From Methanofollis sp. (GTDB lineage Archaea; Halobacteriota; Methanomicrobia; Methanomicrobiales; Methanofollaceae), in assembly GCA_030156225.1 (NCBI GenBank), contig JASGMW010000003.1:1-48828 (forward strand): DNA of 48,828 bases, given 5' to 3'. Below the pieces are notes generated by a model. The model saw nothing but the letters and a program-made list of their open reading frames with translations. It was not told where the DNA came from and searched no databases. Of this stretch, positions 27,460 through 37,866 are shown one piece after another (position 1 is the first letter of the stretch; each line of letters opens with the position of its first letter). A program made the translations under genes and the position numbers.

Positions 27460-29502
<2,043 letters not shown>

Positions 29503-29512
29503 TTTTTTTTTT
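29503..29512 (+). terminator. T10 run after hppA
   Basis: An uninterrupted T10 follows the stop codon directly, the strongest T-run terminator in the window. Confidence 0.6.
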
Positions 29513-29925
29513 GGTACGCTCGAGCCCATGTAGCATCGGGTACCAGAAACAGGTACGAATGCCACATTCCGAAACTTTCGCACTCCAGGGTCTGTAAAAA
29601 TCCTGTTCTGGAGGGGCGGCGGGGCAGAACCCTCCATCATCAAGAGAGAGGAGGAGAGATCAGAATCCCTCATCATGCTCTTATCTTCCCTTCCCGGACC
29701 AATCATTGCGCGGGGGTCCGGGGGCTGAAGTATAATGGGGAAGGCAGGTGTGTCCTGGCGCAGCTCACAGGATCATGAAGATAGATCAACCGTCGTATGA
29801 GGGTTTCAACAAAGCCCACTCCAGATAAAACGGCGCGCTGCTCCGATAGGAACCTGTGCCGGAATATCCGGCGGTTTCTGGATAAGTCAGAGGGTTAATA
29901 AACTTTTTTTGTCATAAATCAGATA
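29513..29925. other. Gene-free stretch upstream of DUF2162-CobN cluster
   Basis: About 410 bases without a gene I can support. It holds several short inverted repeats and GC-rich blocks (for instance GGGGGTCCGGGGGC near 29713) and, at its right end, a TATA-like GGTTAATAAAC (about 29895-29905) 20-30 bases before ATG 29926, which would give a leaderless message. A short element TTTCAACAAAGC near 29807 recurs near 39041. Confidence 0.4.
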
Positions 29926-30642
29926 ATGCAGCAACTTGCCCTCTTCCTCACAGGCGGAACCCTGATCGGGATCGGCATCCTGGCGATGAAATCCGGCCTC
30001 GGATGCGGTCTTTCTGGCCTGAACCACAGAGAGATGATCGGATTCGCCGCAATATACGGCATCGTCGCCTTTATCGTCGGTCTGATTGCAGCCGCCATCT
30101 CGCCCGAAGTGACCGACATGGTGATCGGCGCCGGTCTTTTCATGCATCTGATCATTGCGGCGGGGCTGGTATATTTCGGGATACAAACACGCAAGGCATG
30201 GTTGTCAGGGAAAGAAGACATCTCCCGGCGAACATACCTCTGGTTTTCCGTCCCCTGTCCGGCATGCATGACAGCCACCTTTCTCGCCTGTATCGTCCTC
30301 ACCGATGCCTCCGGGATCTCCGGCATCGCCGTCAGCGGAATCGTAGCCCTGCTCCTTTTTGCCGGCATCACAATCTCGGCTCTCGGCATCTCATGGGCCG
30401 GAACAAGGAGCGGATGGAAAAATCCATCCACCCTCGGGAGCGCCATGATCATGCTCGGCCTCTTCTACATGCTCTGTCCCCTCTTCATCCCGGCATACAT
30501 CGAAGCGCAACAGATTGAAGGCGAGATTACCATGGCATCCCCGGCAAACACATGGGTCGGACTGCTGGCCCTCTGCATCCCGGTCGGTGCAGGCTTCCTG
30601 ATCAACAGACTGACCCGGGCGCGGACAGGGGGGATGAGGTGA
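29926..30642 (+). CDS. DUF2162 family membrane protein
   Basis: 238 residues, six or seven hydrophobic helices. Recognised as DUF2162, a putative transporter of methanogens: LAMKSGLGCGLSGLN near residue 20, WFSVPCPACMTATFLACI near residue 105 (two Cys in a Pro-Cys-Pro-Ala-Cys turn within a helix), and YMLCPLFIPAYIEA near residue 180. The CPAC pair inside the membrane could bind metal or be redox active. It overlaps the start of the ExbB-like gene, so the set is co-translated. Function unproven; the cluster points to uptake of a metal or metal complex. Confidence 0.85.
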   Translation: MQQLALFLTGGTLIGIGILAMKSGLGCGLSGLNHREMIGFAAIYGIVAFIVGLIAAAISPEVTDMVIGAGLFMHLIIAAGLVYFGIQTRKAWLSGKEDISRRTYLWFSVPCPACMTATFLACIVLTDASGISGIAVSGIVALLLFAGITISALGISWAGTRSGWKNPSTLGSAMIMLGLFYMLCPLFIPAYIEAQQIEGEITMASPANTWVGLLALCIPVGAGFLINRLTRARTGGMR

Positions 30643-31259
30643 TGGAGGTCGCCGCATCCATCATGGAGATGTTGTTCGTCCTCTCCGAAGCGCTCCTGTA
30701 TCCGGCCATCCTGATCCTGATCGCCCTTGTCGTATGGGTGCTGTTGATGCTTGGCCAGGCAATCTCTGAATATTCCGGCAGGATCAGAGATTTCAACCAG
30801 ATCAGGGAGGCGGCCGCACAGGCCCATCACCTGATAGCGACCAATAACCCGGCCGGTGCCGCAGAGGCGTTTGGCGCAGTTCCCCTGAACGTGATGGTCA
30901 GGCATTTCATCACCGACATCAGCGCGTTCTTCGGGGACACCAGGTTTTCTCTCGAAGCAGAAAAACTGCTTCAGGACTATGAACTTATCATCGGAAAAGA
31001 ACTCGACTGCCTGAAGATTCTTACCAAGACCGCACCGATGCTCGGTCTGATGGGAACGCTCATACCGCTCGGGCCGGGACTGATGGGGCTTTCCGAAGGC
31101 AATATCCAGGCACTGGCATCCAACCTTGTCGTCGCATTCAGCACCACCGTGCTGGGACTGCTGGTGGGTGGGATCTCCTATGCCGTCATGGTGATCCGGC
31201 GCCGCTGGTATTACCAGGACTTCTCGGATATGGAATACATCGTAGAGGCGGTTGAATGA
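30642..31259 (+). CDS. MotA/TolQ/ExbB-type proton channel protein
   Basis: 205 residues. A first helix near residues 13-40, a cytoplasmic middle (about 45-120), then two helices: the family signature LTKTAPMLGLMGTLIPLGPG near 124 and LVVAFSTTVLGLLVGGISYA near 162. In bacteria such proteins pair with ExbD/TolR to power outer-membrane receptors by proton or sodium flow. Archaea have no outer membrane, so the energy must drive something else here. The next gene (DUF2149) takes the place of ExbD. The ATG shares one base with the preceding TGA, and its stop overlaps the next ATG. Confidence 0.9.
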   Translation: MEVAASIMEMLFVLSEALLYPAILILIALVVWVLLMLGQAISEYSGRIRDFNQIREAAAQAHHLIATNNPAGAAEAFGAVPLNVMVRHFITDISAFFGDTRFSLEAEKLLQDYELIIGKELDCLKILTKTAPMLGLMGTLIPLGPGLMGLSEGNIQALASNLVVAFSTTVLGLLVGGISYAVMVIRRRWYYQDFSDMEYIVEAVE

Positions 31260-31630
31260 AAGAGAGACGGCGACTGTATCTCTCCACAGAGGACGACGAC
31301 GACCCTCTTGCAGGCATGGCCAATCTTTTCGACGTTGCAATGGTCTTTGCCGTCGCCCTCCTCGTCGCGTTGGTGCTCTCCTTCAATGTGCCCGAGATGC
31401 TTGACGATCAATCCAGCGTCACACTCGTGAAAAACCCCGGCGCGCCCGACATGCAGATCATCGTCAAAGACCGGTACGAGATCAAGGTGTTGAATATGAC
31501 CGAACAGGTGGCCGGCGGACAGGGCAAGAAACTGGGCACCGCCTATCGGCTGGAAAACGGGCAGGTCATCTATGTGCCCAACGACAATAGATCCATAGAG
31601 TCTGAGGGAGAGGGCAGGCCCACCCAATAA
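31256..31630 (+). CDS. DUF2149 family protein, ExbD-like partner
   Basis: 124 residues. One membrane helix (about residues 23-43) after a short acidic, cytoplasmic N-terminus (STEDDDDPLAGMANLFDVAM), then a soluble outer part. This is the ExbD/TolR topology, and DUF2149 commonly follows an ExbB-like gene in methanogens. The Asp just before or at the start of the helix (FDVAMVFAVAL) is where ExbD has its ion-carrying Asp. The outer part keeps a GTAYRLENGQVIYVP strand pair. It overlaps the ExbB-like gene by four bases. Confidence 0.85.
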   Translation: MKERRRLYLSTEDDDDPLAGMANLFDVAMVFAVALLVALVLSFNVPEMLDDQSSVTLVKNPGAPDMQIIVKDRYEIKVLNMTEQVAGGQGKKLGTAYRLENGQVIYVPNDNRSIESEGEGRPTQ

Positions 31631-31833
31631 AAAACGCCACAAATCGTGAAAATTCGAGATATCTCCAACAATAACGTCATTATAGCCCAAAAAAACCCTT
31701 TTTTCTCAATAAGGACATTATATTCGCTTCAATTCGGAATCCTTATATTAAAACAATAAAAAGTGATATAGTTAAAAATTAGTTTATTAGCCGGCCCGCC
31801 CGGACGGGCACCCCCGGCCAGAGAGGCAGATAA
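31631..31833 (+). promoter_or_regulatory. AT-rich gap and structured leader before CobN-like gene
   Basis: 203 bases between DUF2149 and the large gene. The first 150 are strikingly AT-rich (several TATA-like sites such as ACATTATATTC near 31717 and GTGATATAG near 31763), so the large gene may have its own promoter. The last 40 bases before the ATG are GC-rich and fold into a hairpin (GCCGG...CCCG-tccg-CGGGC...CCGGC region, about 31792-31820). A purine-rich AGAGAGGCAG follows as ribosome site. A metal-responsive leader is possible but unsupported by a known motif. Confidence 0.4.
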
Positions 31834-34800
31834 ATGGAAAAAAACCGATTGAAGCGGCTTTATGCCCTGACAATCGTCGTCGTCCTGTGCGTCATGCCGG
31901 CGGCGGCGATCGATTCGAGCACGAACATCACAACAGAAAACCAGACGGCACCGGAAGACGCACCGGAAATTATACCGGAAGACGCACCGGTCGCCGTCAT
32001 AGATGAGGAAACGCCGCACACATCGCCCGACACAAACGCGACGGAACGCCATCGGCTCGCGATCGTGGCCGGGGGGCCGTGCAACCTGAGCGAACTGAAC
32101 GAGGCCGCCCTGGACGCACCGGTGGACGTCACGGTGCTGAACGGAACCGAAGCGCTCCTCTACAACTTTTCCGCGGAACGCCTCATCTTCGCGGCGTCCG
32201 TGAACGACGCGGTGATCAAACAGATCGCGGCCACGATGGACCCGACAGCGCCCCTGGTGGTGTACGACACTCCTGCCGGCACCGAACTCGGAACCCTGGC
32301 AGATACATCAACCGCAGCCCGCTGGACAGAAGGCGGCACAGAAAACTTCCGCGCCCTGATGATCTATCTGGACACAACCTCTGCCGGGAACGCCACGCAG
32401 ACAGAGTGCCCGGACAACCGCACCCTTGCGATCGTCACCGGCGACACGGCCCGGCAGGCAGCGGTTGCCAACGTCAGTGCAACGGCCTCTCTGAAGATCG
32501 CACTTTTCAACGAGACAGAGGCACAACAACACGATTTCGCCGAGGATAGCCTGATCTTTGCAGCATCGGACGACGACACCCTTGAACAGATCGCCGACAC
32601 GGTCGCCGACAACGCCACCCTTCTGGTCTGCGAACAGGAAGGTGACTCAACGGTCGGCACACCTGCCGGCGACCTTCTGGAAAAATATTGGCTGTACGGC
32701 GGCGAAGAAAACCTGTTCAACATGGTTCTGGCACTGGAAAACGAATATTATGGCACAAACCACACGCTTGCCGATCCCCTCCCGCCGGGAGAGCGGCCGA
32801 AGATCGCCTATGTCTTCTCCCGGACCTCCGAGTTCTCAAGCATGCGCGCCATCGCCGAAGAGAAAGACGTTCAGGCCCGGATGAACGTCACCGTGTACCT
32901 CGGCAGGTCCAATGAAAACCTCTCCTTCGACCTCTCGGCTCAGGACGTCGTCCTGCTCTCAAATATCGATGCCGGCGTCATTGAGGATCTCTCGAACACT
33001 GTCGAGGCGGCCAGAGACAACGGCGCGACGATCATCTCGATGGGACCGCTGGCCCAGAGTTACAACCTCCACACTCTCTCCCCGGAGAGCAATGAGAGCA
33101 AAAAAATTGAAGAATACCTGGAATACCCCTCCGAACACAACCACCGAAGCCTCGCCCTCTACATGGGGGCGACCTTCTGCAACCTCACCTGCGAGGCAGA
33201 AGATCCCGAAACCCGCCCGGTCTACGGGATATACCACCCAGCCGCTCCGGAGATCTTCTCCAGCGTGACCGCATATCTCGACTGGTACGCCGGCACCGGC
33301 AGATACGACCCGGCCAATCCGACCGTCGGGATCATGACCGGCGACTACAAGTACTTCGCCAGGGACGGCCCGATGCTTGACGCCCTCATCGATTCCTTCG
33401 AGAACAGGAGTGTCAACGTCATCCTCGGCACCTACCACTACAAGGATCCGGTCAATATCGGCTATTTCATGCAAAACGGGACGGTGCTGATCGACACGGC
33501 AATCGTCATATCCAAGGGAAGCAGGCTCGATTATTCAGATCCAGACCGCGGTATCGAGAACCTGAAGACCCTCGACGTCCCGGTGCTGAACGCCGTCAGG
33601 CTCTTCTACGACGTCAACGAGACGACATGGCGCCAGAGCCCCCACGGTGTCGGCCCCGAGCAGACCTACCAGCTCGCCGCCGCCGAACTCGACGGGATCA
33701 TCGAGCCGATCGTATTCGCCGGAAAAGAACCGGATCCGGTGACCGGCGAGCTCTGCTACAAGCCCTTCGAGGACCAGACGGCATGGCTCACCGATCGGGC
33801 GATCGGCTGGATGAACCTCCACCGCACTGCCAATGCCGACAAAAAGGTGATCATCCCCTATTACTGTTCTGAAGCAGGGAAGGCCTTCATCGGTGCAGAT
33901 ATCGATTATTACCTCGACGCCCAGGCAAGCCTCGCAAATCTCCTTGCAGGAATGAAAGAACGGGGATACGACCTCGGCGGCAGGGCGGTGCCGGACGCGG
34001 ACGAGCTGGCAGATCTGATGGTCGAGTACGGCCACAACTACGGAAAGTGGGCCTCTGATGAACTGGAGGAGTGCGTGCAGAACGGCGACGCCATCCTCAT
34101 CCCGGAAGCGCAGTATCTTGCCTGGTTCAACGAACTTCCGGCAGATAAAAAGGCCGAGGTGCGGGACGTATGGGGCGAACCTCCCGGCGACATTATGGTG
34201 TACGAAAACGGAGGCGAAAAATTCCTGGTGATCCCGACAATCCGTTTCGGCAACGTCATGCTCGCCCCGGACCCGATGTCGGGCCTGGACCAGGACGTCG
34301 ACGTGATGTACAGGGATTCGTCGATCCCGCCGACACACCAGTGCATCGCCTTCTATCTGTACATGGACCGCGTCTACAACGCCGACGCGATCTTCTCGAT
34401 CTTCAGCGCCATCCCGACAATGCCGGGAAAGGAGTGCGGCCTCGCCTGTACCGACTGGGGAGCGATCCTGAGCGGGGATATGCCGCACATCCATGTCCTG
34501 CCGATGGATGCCGAGGGCATATTCGACCACAGGAGAGCGAACATGGCCATCGTCGACTTCATGACGCCGACGATCGTTCCCTCGGGCTTATATGGTGATT
34601 TTGCAGATCTCGAAGACGCCATCGACAATTATCAGACGGTCGTGGATGAGGCCGTGAAAGCGCAATATAAATCCCAGATCATTGTCAGCGTGAAGAATCT
34701 CAGCCTCGACAGCGCACTGGATGTCAATGCGTCCGTTTTCGTCGAGGACGATGACGCATTCGAGGCCTTCCTGCCAGATCTCGAATCGTATCTCACCTCC

Positions 34801-36789
34801 ATGAAGACGTCCTGCATGCCCTATGGATCGCACACGCTCGGCGAAGTGCCCGAAGGCGAGCCCCTTGCCGCCATGCTCAAAGGGATGATCGATCCCGACT
34901 ACAGCGAACACGTGGCAGCAGCCGGTGGCGACGATGAGAGCGGGCTTGAAATCCTCTGTCTCGTCGTCAACGGAACGGCTCCGGCAGACGCACAGGCAGA
35001 TGTGCTCGGCACGACGACGGCCGATATCTCTAACGATCTCGCCCTCGGCCTGGACTACCTCGACCGGATCAACGGCTGCACGGTCGAGATCCCGCGTATC
35101 CTTGACGCACTTGAGGCCAGGTACATTCCGCCCGGGCCGAACGGCGACCCCATACGCAACCCGGACGCCCTTCCCACGGGACGGAACCTCCACACCTTCG
35201 ACGACCGGGAGATCCCCACCGCCGCCGCCTGGAACGTGGGCACGGATCTGGGAGACGAACTGATCGCCCGGTATATCGAGGATCACGGCGAGTATCCCGG
35301 AAAGATTTCTTTCCTCCTCTGGTCGATCGAGACCTCCAGACATCAGGGAACAATGGAGTCGGAGATCTTCTGGATGCTCGGTGTCAGGCCGGTCTGGGAC
35401 AGTCGCAACCGCGTCAAAGACGTCGAGCTGATCCCGTCTTCAGAGCTCGGCCGCCCGCGGGTCGATGTGCTGGTGGTCTGTTCTGGGAGTTACCGGGACA
35501 TGTATGCCAGCAGACTCGAACTGATCGACAAAGCCGTCAGGCTTGCGGCAGAGGCCGACGACGGTGCAATGCCGAATTACGTGAAGATCAACACAGAGGA
35601 CACCTACCAGAGCCTGATCGCATCTGGTTACGATGAGGAAACAGCGCGGACCCTCTCCCTCGCCCGCATCTTCTGTCCGCCGCCGGGTTCGTACTCGCCA
35701 GGAATCGAGCACGCCATCGGCGCTTCTGATACCTGGGACAACACCTCAGCCATCGCCGATTACTATATCGACCGGATGGGCTACATCTACAGCGGGGGCA
35801 TCTGGGGCGAACAGTACGCCGACGTCTTCAGAGATAACCTGGAAGACGTGAGCGCATGCGTATTTTCCAGAACGTCAAACGTCTACGGCTGTCTCGAACA
35901 CCCGATGGTCGCCGCGTACTTCGGCGGGCTGAACCTGGCGATCAAGGAGGTCACCGGTCGGAGCGTGGACATGTACATCAACAATCTCAGGTCCGCACAG
36001 GACCAGAAACTGGAGACCCTGGGCGAATTTCTGAGCAAAGACCTCTACTCCCGCTATCTGAACCCCACATGGATAGAAGGCATGATGGGGCACGGGTATG
36101 ACGGCAGCAGGTACTTCGTCTCTCTTGTCGAAAACACCTGGATCTGGGATGTGACCATGCCCGATCTGATCAGCGAAGGAATGTGGGACGATATCTACGA
36201 GACCTATGTTCTTGATTCCAACAACCTCGGGCTCTCTGAATTTTTCGACGAACAGAACCCCTATGCCCTCCAGTCGATCGAAGCGCGGCTGCTCGACGCC
36301 GCCAGAAAGGGCTACTGGAATCCGGATGACGGGGCGTTACAGCAGCTCGCAGACGATTTTCAGCGATCCGTCGATATCAACGGCGTGACCTGCTGCCACC
36401 ACACCTGCGGCAACCTCGACCTTTCGAACTACATTCAGGGCATGATGAAGACCGCGGCCCCGGACGGTTCGGATGATAGCGGGGGTGAACCGCCGGCGCA
36501 GGTCGTGAGCGAATCCGCGGCGAAGACACCATCGGCATCTGAAGACGGACCGAGCGGCGACCATGCCGCCGCCAATTCAACGGCCACGAGTGGATACGGC
36601 CAGAACCAACAGATGCCGGCCGCTCCGCAGATTGCCCCCCCCGATGCCGGCGTCTCCGGACACGTGATGGAGGAGATGAACTATGAGAACCAGGAAAGCG
36701 GCGCGACCACCATCCCCATTATTCCGATCCTGATCGTGGCAATCGTGATCGGCGCAGTTTTCGCCGGGATCTGGTGGAAGAGGACGTAG
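31834..36789 (+). CDS. cobN: Secreted, membrane-anchored CobN-like chelatase
   Basis: 1651 residues. Related to the large subunit of cobaltochelatase (CobN) and Mg-chelatase (ChlH/BchH). An N-terminal signal peptide (about residues 7-26), many N-x-S/T sequons, a Ser/Pro/Gly-rich spacer (about 1540-1625) and one C-terminal helix ending WWKRT put the enzyme on the outer face of the membrane. Residues about 73-440 hold three related modules absent from ordinary CobN; the CobN body fills the rest (for instance RNLHTFDDREIPTAAAWNVG near 1114, then NPTWIEGMMGHGYDGSRYF). A Cys/His motif CCHHTC at residues 1520-1525 could bind metal. No CobS/CobT or ChlI/ChlD ATPase is nearby, so it may act in uptake or metal exchange outside the cell, powered by the ExbB-like pair. 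Confidence 0.9.
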   Translation: MEKNRLKRLYALTIVVVLCVMPAAAIDSSTNITTENQTAPEDAPEIIPEDAPVAVIDEETPHTSPDTNATERHRLAIVAGGPCNLSELNEAALDAPVDVTVLNGTEALLYNFSAERLIFAASVNDAVIKQIAATMDPTAPLVVYDTPAGTELGTLADTSTAARWTEGGTENFRALMIYLDTTSAGNATQTECPDNRTLAIVTGDTARQAAVANVSATASLKIALFNETEAQQHDFAEDSLIFAASDDDTLEQIADTVADNATLLVCEQEGDSTVGTPAGDLLEKYWLYGGEENLFNMVLALENEYYGTNHTLADPLPPGERPKIAYVFSRTSEFSSMRAIAEEKDVQARMNVTVYLGRSNENLSFDLSAQDVVLLSNIDAGVIEDLSNTVEAARDNGATIISMGPLAQSYNLHTLSPESNESKKIEEYLEYPSEHNHRSLALYMGATFCNLTCEAEDPETRPVYGIYHPAAPEIFSSVTAYLDWYAGTGRYDPANPTVGIMTGDYKYFARDGPMLDALIDSFENRSVNVILGTYHYKDPVNIGYFMQNGTVLIDTAIVISKGSRLDYSDPDRGIENLKTLDVPVLNAVRLFYDVNETTWRQSPHGVGPEQTYQLAAAELDGIIEPIVFAGKEPDPVTGELCYKPFEDQTAWLTDRAIGWMNLHRTANADKKVIIPYYCSEAGKAFIGADIDYYLDAQASLANLLAGMKERGYDLGGRAVPDADELADLMVEYGHNYGKWASDELEECVQNGDAILIPEAQYLAWFNELPADKKAEVRDVWGEPPGDIMVYENGGEKFLVIPTIRFGNVMLAPDPMSGLDQDVDVMYRDSSIPPTHQCIAFYLYMDRVYNADAIFSIFSAIPTMPGKECGLACTDWGAILSGDMPHIHVLPMDAEGIFDHRRANMAIVDFMTPTIVPSGLYGDFADLEDAIDNYQTVVDEAVKAQYKSQIIVSVKNLSLDSALDVNASVFVEDDDAFEAFLPDLESYLTSMKTSCMPYGSHTLGEVPEGEPLAAMLKGMIDPDYSEHVAAAGGDDESGLEILCLVVNGTAPADAQADVLGTTTADISNDLALGLDYLDRINGCTVEIPRILDALEARYIPPGPNGDPIRNPDALPTGRNLHTFDDREIPTAAAWNVGTDLGDELIARYIEDHGEYPGKISFLLWSIETSRHQGTMESEIFWMLGVRPVWDSRNRVKDVELIPSSELGRPRVDVLVVCSGSYRDMYASRLELIDKAVRLAAEADDGAMPNYVKINTEDTYQSLIASGYDEETARTLSLARIFCPPPGSYSPGIEHAIGASDTWDNTSAIADYYIDRMGYIYSGGIWGEQYADVFRDNLEDVSACVFSRTSNVYGCLEHPMVAAYFGGLNLAIKEVTGRSVDMYINNLRSAQDQKLETLGEFLSKDLYSRYLNPTWIEGMMGHGYDGSRYFVSLVENTWIWDVTMPDLISEGMWDDIYETYVLDSNNLGLSEFFDEQNPYALQSIEARLLDAARKGYWNPDDGALQQLADDFQRSVDINGVTCCHHTCGNLDLSNYIQGMMKTAAPDGSDDSGGEPPAQVVSESAAKTPSASEDGPSGDHAAANSTATSGYGQNQQMPAAPQIAPPDAGVSGHVMEEMNYENQESGATTIPIIPILIVAIVIGAVFAGIWWKRT

Positions 36790-36921: not shown

Positions 36922-37866
36922 ATGCTGAAGATTTTCAAAACCCGACAGAATGAAGCGGGGGCATTTATCGAGGAACTCGACACGGTCGAACCCGGGGCAT
37001 GGATCGTCTGCACCGCGCCGGACGAGGCCGAGATCGGCCGTGCCGCCGGGATCATCGGGATCGTCCCGGAGGACCTGCGGGCGGCCCTCGACGAGGAGGA
37101 GCGTCCGCGTATGGAGACGGAAGAGGGAAGAACCCTTATCCTGATCGACGTCCCCATCAGGATCGCGGGAGAACCCGCGGGAACCTACTCGACGATCCCG
37201 CTCGGGATTGCAATCAGCGACGACTATATCCTCACCATCTGCCTCCAGGAAAGCCTGATCCTGCAGGACTTCATCGCCGGCAAGGTGAAGACCTTTTACA
37301 CCTTTAAAAAGACGCGGTTCCTCTTCCAGATACTCTATCGAAACGCTTCCTATTACCTGAACTTCCTCAGACAGATCGACAAACGATCGACCGAGATCGA
37401 AAAGCAGCTCCACCTTTCCCTGCGAAACGAGGAGTTGATCCTCCTCCTCAACCTGGATAAGTCGCTGGTCTATTTTTCGACCTCGCTGAAGAGCAACGAG
37501 GTGGTGCTTGAGAAGATCCTCAGGTTCAAGCCCGTCCGGATGTTTCCGGAGGACGAGGATCTCCTCGAAGACGTCATCATCGAGAACAAACAGGCGATCG
37601 AGATGGCGAACATCTACTCGAACATTCTTTCCGGCACGATGAACGCCTTCGCCTCGATCATCTCGAACAACCTGAACATCGTGATGAAGTTCCTCGCCTC
37701 GGTGACGATCGTGCTCGCCGTGCCGACGATGATCGCGAGTTTTTTCGGGATGAACGTGGGCATCCCGCTCAGCGACAATCCGATCGCCTTTGCAATCATC
37801 GTCGGGATTTCGATGGTGATTTCCGTCGTCCTCGTGCTGGTCCTGATGAAAAAAAGGATGCTGTGA
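36922..37866 (+). CDS. corA: CorA-family Mg2+/Co2+ transporter
   Basis: 314 residues. A soluble alpha/beta N-terminal domain, a long helical stalk (about 140-255), then two C-terminal helices with the invariant loop GMN in SFFGMNVGIP near residue 276 and a basic tail MKKRML. CorA channels let Mg2+ and Co2+ into the cell. The start ATG 36922 follows GGAGATGCGGAACC. Placed after the CobN-like gene but with a terminator between them, it may or may not belong functionally; a cobalt link is attractive. Confidence 0.92.
   Translation: MLKIFKTRQNEAGAFIEELDTVEPGAWIVCTAPDEAEIGRAAGIIGIVPEDLRAALDEEERPRMETEEGRTLILIDVPIRIAGEPAGTYSTIPLGIAISDDYILTICLQESLILQDFIAGKVKTFYTFKKTRFLFQILYRNASYYLNFLRQIDKRSTEIEKQLHLSLRNEELILLLNLDKSLVYFSTSLKSNEVVLEKILRFKPVRMFPEDEDLLEDVIIENKQAIEMANIYSNILSGTMNAFASIISNNLNIVMKFLASVTIVLAVPTMIASFFGMNVGIPLSDNPIAFAIIVGISMVISVVLVLVLMKKRML

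Follow-up and report, generated by a model that had tools for sequence, protein, structure and literature searches.

HmuS of Bacteroides thetaiotaomicron is described as a membrane-bound heme de-chelatase, in which heme is bound between the head and the neck through Met79 and His254, and His538 is catalytic (PMC12583661). Four parallel strands, helical crossovers and a closing pair of helices make up its head (PMC12583661). Among other CobN-like proteins, BtuS1 and BtuS2 of B. fragilis have been tied to iron from heme (PMC6460266), and two BtuS proteins of Methanosarcina barkeri were reported to be up on pyrite and Fe(II)/cysteine compared with Fe(II)/sulfide (PMC10846266), which may be taken as a hint at iron supply. 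Here we analysed a CobN/HmuS-like protein of 1651 residues encoded on a stretch of 48,828 nucleotides (the window) from the methane-forming archaeon Methanofollis sp. (contig JASGMW010000003.1 of assembly GCA_030156225.1, a draft genome, 88.45% complete). Class I chelatases insert metals into heme-like rings or remove them. The window protein covers the core of this superfamily, PF02514, over its full length (E 9.5e-299 at residues 427-1500; 994 bits, profile positions 2-1088 of 1090), and its best PDB match is HmuS (9d26, 9p4s; sequence E 7.2e-136, Foldseek E 3e-14). It resembles the BtuS proteins by description, as CobN-like. With HmuS it has in common the order of head, neck and body, membrane attachment (predicted for the window protein) and adjoining genes of the ExbB and DUF2149 families; HmuS, however, has one head, whereas the window protein has three.

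Three tandem heads

In the residues before 427, where PF02514 begins, the Pfam scan detected no family. The initial annotation had proposed that this region holds three degenerate tandem modules of one Rossmann-like plan, and the segments are located where it placed them, with nucleotide 32050 corresponding to residue 73 and 33160 to residue 443. We refer to them as M1 (h3), M2 (h2) and the neck-proximal M3 (h1). As a non-circular test, a profile hidden Markov model of 165 positions was built from 21 one-head surface CobNs, with the window protein excluded. It gave three tandem matches in the N-terminus, at residues 58-196 (independent E-value 6e-4), 185-320 (4e-10) and 318-464 (2e-37), each spanning most of the profile. 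The profile used for counting heads, in contrast, included the window heads, hence its E-values are circular for this protein. Against 2000 shuffled sequences, the profile scores of M1 (8.1 bits, shuffle maximum 6.5) and M2 (23.1 bits, maximum 6.2) stand out. Likewise, the Smith-Waterman scores of M1 with M2 (132) and of M1 with M3 (60) were reached by none of 2000 shuffles, while that of M2 with M3 (42) was reached by 40 and is weak taken alone.

An AlphaFold2 model of residues 66-680, computed with 31 relatives (mean predicted local distance difference test score, pLDDT, 87.3; predicted template modelling score, pTM, 0.62), shows the element order E-H-E-E-H-E-H-H, with short extra helices, three times over, from E74-79 to H169-184, from E197-202 to H290-306 and from E323-328 to H434-449. 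Folded alone (pLDDT 86.1, pTM 0.81), M1 superposes best on residues 3-128 of CobN (7c6o; Z 11.2, root mean square deviation 2.9, 109 aligned residues), followed by the heads of ChlH with Z 10.0-10.6. HmuS is absent from the matches listed in both structure searches with M1; h1 together with the neck superposes on residues 30-350 of heme-bound HmuS (3.5 Å over 311 residues). By the succession of their elements, the predicted modules match the head described for HmuS. Hence, all three modules represent the head of class I chelatases (domain I of CobN, ChlH and HmuS), repeated in tandem. The one plan repeated three times is borne out by the window-free profile, the shuffles and the model, the alpha/beta units are indeed Rossmann-like, and three unrelated folds are ruled out by the profile matches and the predicted element order. 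The count of modules needs a correction: M3, adjoining the neck, is the head found in ordinary chelatases, which leaves the outer two as additions.

Number, origin and exchange of heads

Head numbers were determined in 82 complete surface proteins carrying a C-terminal CCHH string, namely the window protein and 81 proteins from named loci. The 78 named loci go back to the 80 top-ranking of 542 confirmed candidates, picked by likeness to the window alignment, so that the counts do not amount to a census. Left out were proteins with an open 5' end, open reading frames (ORFs) below 900 residues, L094 with its masked letters, proteins lacking CCHH and the surface proteins obtained in the search of the order. 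One head was found in 49 proteins, two in 25, three in seven and five in one; head multiplication is thus not unique to the window protein, and archaeal surface proteins of the same build with CCHHTC have two to five heads in 33 of the 82 cases, the window protein included. In agreement with the initial annotation, by which an ordinary CobN has at most one such unit, 18 of 19 complete cytoplasmic-type CobNs from the search of the order have one head, and none was found in the remaining one. The five-head protein (L046) belongs to Methanolobus psychrotolerans; its copies fall into one 10-row set with those of L070 and L092 (99% support in the Shimodaira-Hasegawa-like approximate likelihood ratio test, SH-aLRT), an expansion separate from that in the window protein.

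A careful tree built from 53 heads separates the outer from the neck-proximal heads by a branch with 99/86 support, the exception being the outer head of L050_1597, which is placed on the neck-proximal side. This split indicates that the two-head form is old, and the form is represented in loci from ANME, Methanosarcinales, Methanomicrobiales and the Methanothrix type. The h3 of the window pairs with that of Methanogenium L105 (100/97) within a 13-row set of Methanomicrobiales outer heads (100/97); L105, which has the other of two core types, is the only further protein with an h3 of this kind among the relatives examined. The h1 of the window clusters with Methanoculleus and related h1 heads (8 rows, 100/99), and the h1 heads of L105, L008 and L009 form a separate clade (100/100). 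An approximately unbiased test, picked after viewing a tree, speaks against h2 and h3 of the window as exclusive sisters (p 0.0127). The outer heads would have arisen in two rounds, with an old stage of h2 and h1 followed by a further copy of h2, the present h3, in Methanomicrobiales.

The two core types are distinguished by the motif HFGxHG, which is present in L105, L008, L009 and many more and missing from the window protein, L004-L007, L033-L038 and others, and they agree with the grouping of h1 in the head tree. L008 combines a core of the HFGxHG kind with a Methanoculleus shell, and L033 has the other kind of core. Between the two, identity is 92% in the signal, 97% in the linker, 70% in M2 and 85% in the tail, but 23% in h1, 37% in the neck and 46-52% in the body. 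In 30-residue windows, residues 1-195 of L008 show 70-96% identity with Methanoculleus L033 and 20-56% with L105, residues 256-540 show 13-46% and 56-86%, respectively, and from about residue 1441 the values are again 73-93% and 26-63%. The switch points thus lie at about 190-245, within the latter half of h2, and at about 1410-1450, just ahead of the CCHH at 1456. L008, L105 and L009 also cluster by their h2 heads (90/100), as expected if part of h2 moved with the cassette. A misassembly behind this mosaic is ruled out, since the genome that encodes L008 (G004) is a single contig. The window protein and L105 are 51% identical in M1 and about 60% at the tail end, but 23% in h1 and 45-46% in the body, and the products of their neighbouring DUF2162, ExbB and DUF2149 genes are 74, 73 and 78% identical. 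Both patterns show that the linker, the outer heads (at least their N-terminal part) and the tail go with the organism and its operon, in contrast to h1, neck and body, which go with the core type. The neck-proximal head, the neck and the body are therefore exchanged as a cassette, and heads are gained and swapped as building blocks.

The contents of the N-terminal slot vary further, and relatives with a long N-terminus but no additional heads have other modules there. PQQ_2 propellers fill it in L084 and L067, the latter also matching DUF4430 weakly, under the Pfam cut-off, and repeats of the CarboxypepD_reg/SdrD_B type are found in L083 and L106 and, by eye, similarly in L091 and L108. In the Methanoculleus/Methanocalculus relatives L005-L007, L033, L035 and L037 the place of M1 is taken by an acidic stretch rich in T, P and E, whereas L004 and L034 simply begin later.

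Ligand residues and the role of the outer heads

The residues that mark HmuS activity, the NADH-dependent removal of iron from heme, are replaced in the window protein. The heme ligands Met79 and His254 correspond to Ile378 and Lys561, His538 of HFGxHG to Phe857 beside a two-residue gap, and His1209 and Glu1212 of LSLDHxxEFMGG to Met1358 and Ala1361, with His1356 two residues off. The methionine-rich insertion in domain IV of HmuS has no counterpart, as no 100 residues of the window protein hold more than 8 Met, and the C-terminus carries CCHHTC where HmuS has C-x4-C. The replaced catalytic and heme-ligand residues and the missing insertion rule out membership in the HmuS family. The histidine of HFGxHG is described as conserved across the superfamily and is a mark of activity, not of homology; with it missing, the window protein is homologous to the superfamily but is not claimed as an active chelatase. 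The surface CobNs that lack HxGxHG have FxIF...MPGKE and YGxL[DE]H..V..YFGG in common (window residues 853-867 and 1351-1366). A decaying pseudogene is ruled out by the open frame and by the changed motifs common to these coherent relatives. With the histidine gone, the window lineage is more likely a binder or carrier than a metal-removing enzyme, as judged from its sequence.

The same genome encodes a second, ordinary cytoplasmic-type CobN of 1229-1238 residues (G000:C60, L001). Like CobN (7c6o), the head of which superposes with M1, it has PF02514 as in the window protein, but, unlike the window protein, both have one head, no visible signal or anchor, and HVGTHGNLEFLPGK intact. With hydrophobic segments at its N- and C-terminus, the window protein is not of the cytoplasmic type. 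It is most likely displayed on the cell surface, membrane-anchored and facing outwards, as the predicted signal and anchor suggest and as the initial annotation had assumed. Of 392 genomes from the phylum, 93 contain the CCHHTCG pattern that lies close to the anchor, often in copies a few kb apart and with a maximum of nine in G393; the reversed control pattern is in none of the genomes listed in the phylum search. CCHHTCG is a possible metal site, of which HmuS retains two cysteines.

Among 14 relatives of the same type, 3 of 120 columns of M2 are invariant, compared with 244 of 850 in the body. Each outer head carries four N-glycosylation sequons (3.3 per 100 residues), a number reached by 29 and 23 of 2000 shuffles; the density is 6.8 per 100 residues in the linker and 0.5 in the body. 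The nearly invariant positions of the outer heads (F, S, G, W and N, with W, G and N of the YW.GG.EN motif kept) look structural. The few invariant positions and the sequons are unlike a conserved ligand site and fit an exposed spacer or docking array with a lineage-specific partner, for which we also count the propellers and CarboxypepD_reg repeats in the same slot elsewhere. The outer heads may hence be a glycosylated array of this kind rather than ligand sites. The initial annotation had suggested that the modules bind ligand or form a stalk; the stalk would fit better, given also that no HmuS heme-ligand residues are aligned in the outer heads and that they are inherited apart from the core.

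We somewhat favour an explanation that combines the tandem heads and their two-round origin with ligand capture at the surface and handover to the membrane. The window protein would capture a tetrapyrrole-type ligand outside the cell, in a cleft formed by h1 and the neck. The ligand, or metal from it, would then be handed to a membrane unit of DUF2162, ExbB and DUF2149 proteins that uses the proton gradient, while the outer heads, as a spacer or docking array, would set the reach and the fit to this unit and to the cell wall. Several observations weigh against this explanation. The placement of the heads relative to each other is uncertain (pTM 0.62). The margin of the CobN head as the best fit to M1 is modest, because a receiver domain, the best unrelated fold, reaches Z 9.9, just 1.3 Z behind. 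No match at E <= 0.001 was found by Foldseek with M1 alone, and a profile of outer heads only (A4, 24 rows) found none significant among PDB sequences, with an unrelated phosphatase as the best at E 0.14 and ChlH at 2.9. The exchange breakpoint of L008 lies within h2 and not exactly at the border of h2 and h1, and the low conservation and the sequons would also be compatible with drift or with an array of ligand-binding heads that evolves fast.

The outer heads could instead be extra ligand-binding lobes, each clasping a tetrapyrrole, in an array that concentrates the ligand and passes it on to the cleft of h1 and neck. The heme site of HmuS, with Met79 contributed by the head (PMC12583661), and a similar D-M stretch seen by eye near the place of Met79 in all copies of the five-head L046 point in this direction. 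We nevertheless regard this as unlikely, since the residue aligned with Met79 is Ile378 in the window h1 and, carried over by eye, Val in M1 and Asp in M2, and since the outer heads lack a neck to pair with, have few invariant positions and are inherited separately from the core. A pairing of M1 and M2 as a two-lobed unit like a periplasmic binding protein, with a second cleft beside that of h1 and neck, is very doubtful. Although the two share the same fold in the AlphaFold2 model, none of the matches listed covers them as a pair in a structure search dominated by the neck, their relative placement has low confidence, and relatives mostly carry just one outer head (two heads in total in 25 of the 33 multi-head proteins). 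The fast divergence of the outer heads, the varying head number and the restriction of the window-type h3 to two of the relatives examined would also agree with a nearly neutral tandem duplication, retained as harmless. This appears quite improbable, as the two-head form is old and widespread, the frames remain open and W, G and N of YW.GG.EN are kept.

Gene neighbourhood and implications

Upstream of the CobN-like gene lie genes for a DUF2162 predicted transporter, an ExbB-family protein and a DUF2149 protein (Table 1). In Bacteroidota, HmuU belongs to the ExbB family and HmuV is DUF2149 (PMC10434189), and the order DUF2162, ExbB, DUF2149, CobN-like would be that of hmuT-U-V-S if HmuT equals DUF2162; the name DUF2162 was found in no paper of the literature searched. 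Genes of each of the three families were found in 31 of the 78 related loci, for the most part on the strand of the CobN-like gene and upstream of it; short contigs make up many of the remaining loci. DUF2149 was found in only 2 of 12 genomes of the genus. The HmuS partners HmuY and HmuR were not among the ten window ORFs scanned, and the genome was not searched for them. An H+-pyrophosphatase gene (27460-29502) precedes the set, as also in three Methanoculleus loci, and a gene for a CorA-type transporter (36922-37866) follows directly downstream, matched among the 78 related loci only in L033. Eight terminator-like sites lie at 29400-32000, compared with 2.2 expected from shuffles; the promoter scan was near expectation (3 found, 1.8 expected), and the window has no Rfam match.

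Table 1. Features of the CobN/HmuS-like gene and its upstream neighbours in the window
Feature	Position	Strand	Basis
Surface CobN/HmuS-like protein (predicted location), 1651 aa, whole ORF	31834..36789	+	Translation, stop-free; PF02514; best PDB match 9d26
Signal sequence (predicted), residues ~1-26	31834..31911	+	Hydrophobic peak at residues 6-32 after basic start
Outer head M1 (h3), residues 73-185	32050..32388	+	Profile i-E 6e-4, shuffles, AlphaFold2, superposition on 7c6o
Outer head M2 (h2), residues 197-306	32422..32751	+	Profile i-E 4e-10, AlphaFold2
Neck-proximal head M3 (h1), ordinary chelatase head, residues 323-449	32800..33180	+	Profile i-E 2e-37; aligns to HmuS head
Neck (domain II), residues ~464-664	33223..33825	+	HmuS alignment and superposition; Lys561 at HmuS His254 position
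HxGxHG motif position, residues 853-867	34390..34434	+	Two-residue gap; Phe857 at HmuS His538
CCHHTCGN motif, residues 1520-1527	36391..36414	+	Common to surface relatives
C-terminal transmembrane anchor (predicted), residues ~1621-1648	36694..36777	+	Hydropathy; basic tail after
DUF2162 predicted transporter, HmuT-like position	29926..30642	+	PF09930 E 2.2e-45
MotA/TolQ/ExbB family proton-channel protein, HmuU-like	30552..31259	+	PF01618 E 1.5e-9
DUF2149, HmuV-like	31256..31630	+	PF09919 E 1.1e-32

The HmuS report calls the archaeal use of these homologues unclear, with archaea lacking complete hmu operons (PMC12583661). The T-U-V-like unit beside a surface protein, in the window and in 31 of 78 related loci, indicates that an hmu-like core does exist in archaea. 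The repetition of the head is a variation on the known build of class I chelatases. A literature search by title and start of abstract, with subscription journals mostly outside its scope, found no earlier description of repeated chelatase heads or of core exchange in archaeal surface CobNs. Tentatively, single-membrane archaea may run an ExbB-driven uptake machine like hmuTUV-S, in which an organism-specific shell of signal, linker, outer-head array, tail and anchor is combined with a ligand-specific cassette of h1, neck and body that is swapped between paralogues. The window lineage would then be a chelatase turned carrier after losing its metal-handling histidine, with the head array as a docking tower. 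With the repeated heads and the exchanged core, the parts that choose the ligand can be told apart directly from those that serve attachment, and the lineage lacking the histidine provides a natural way to ask whether such proteins can carry their ligand rather than demetallate it.
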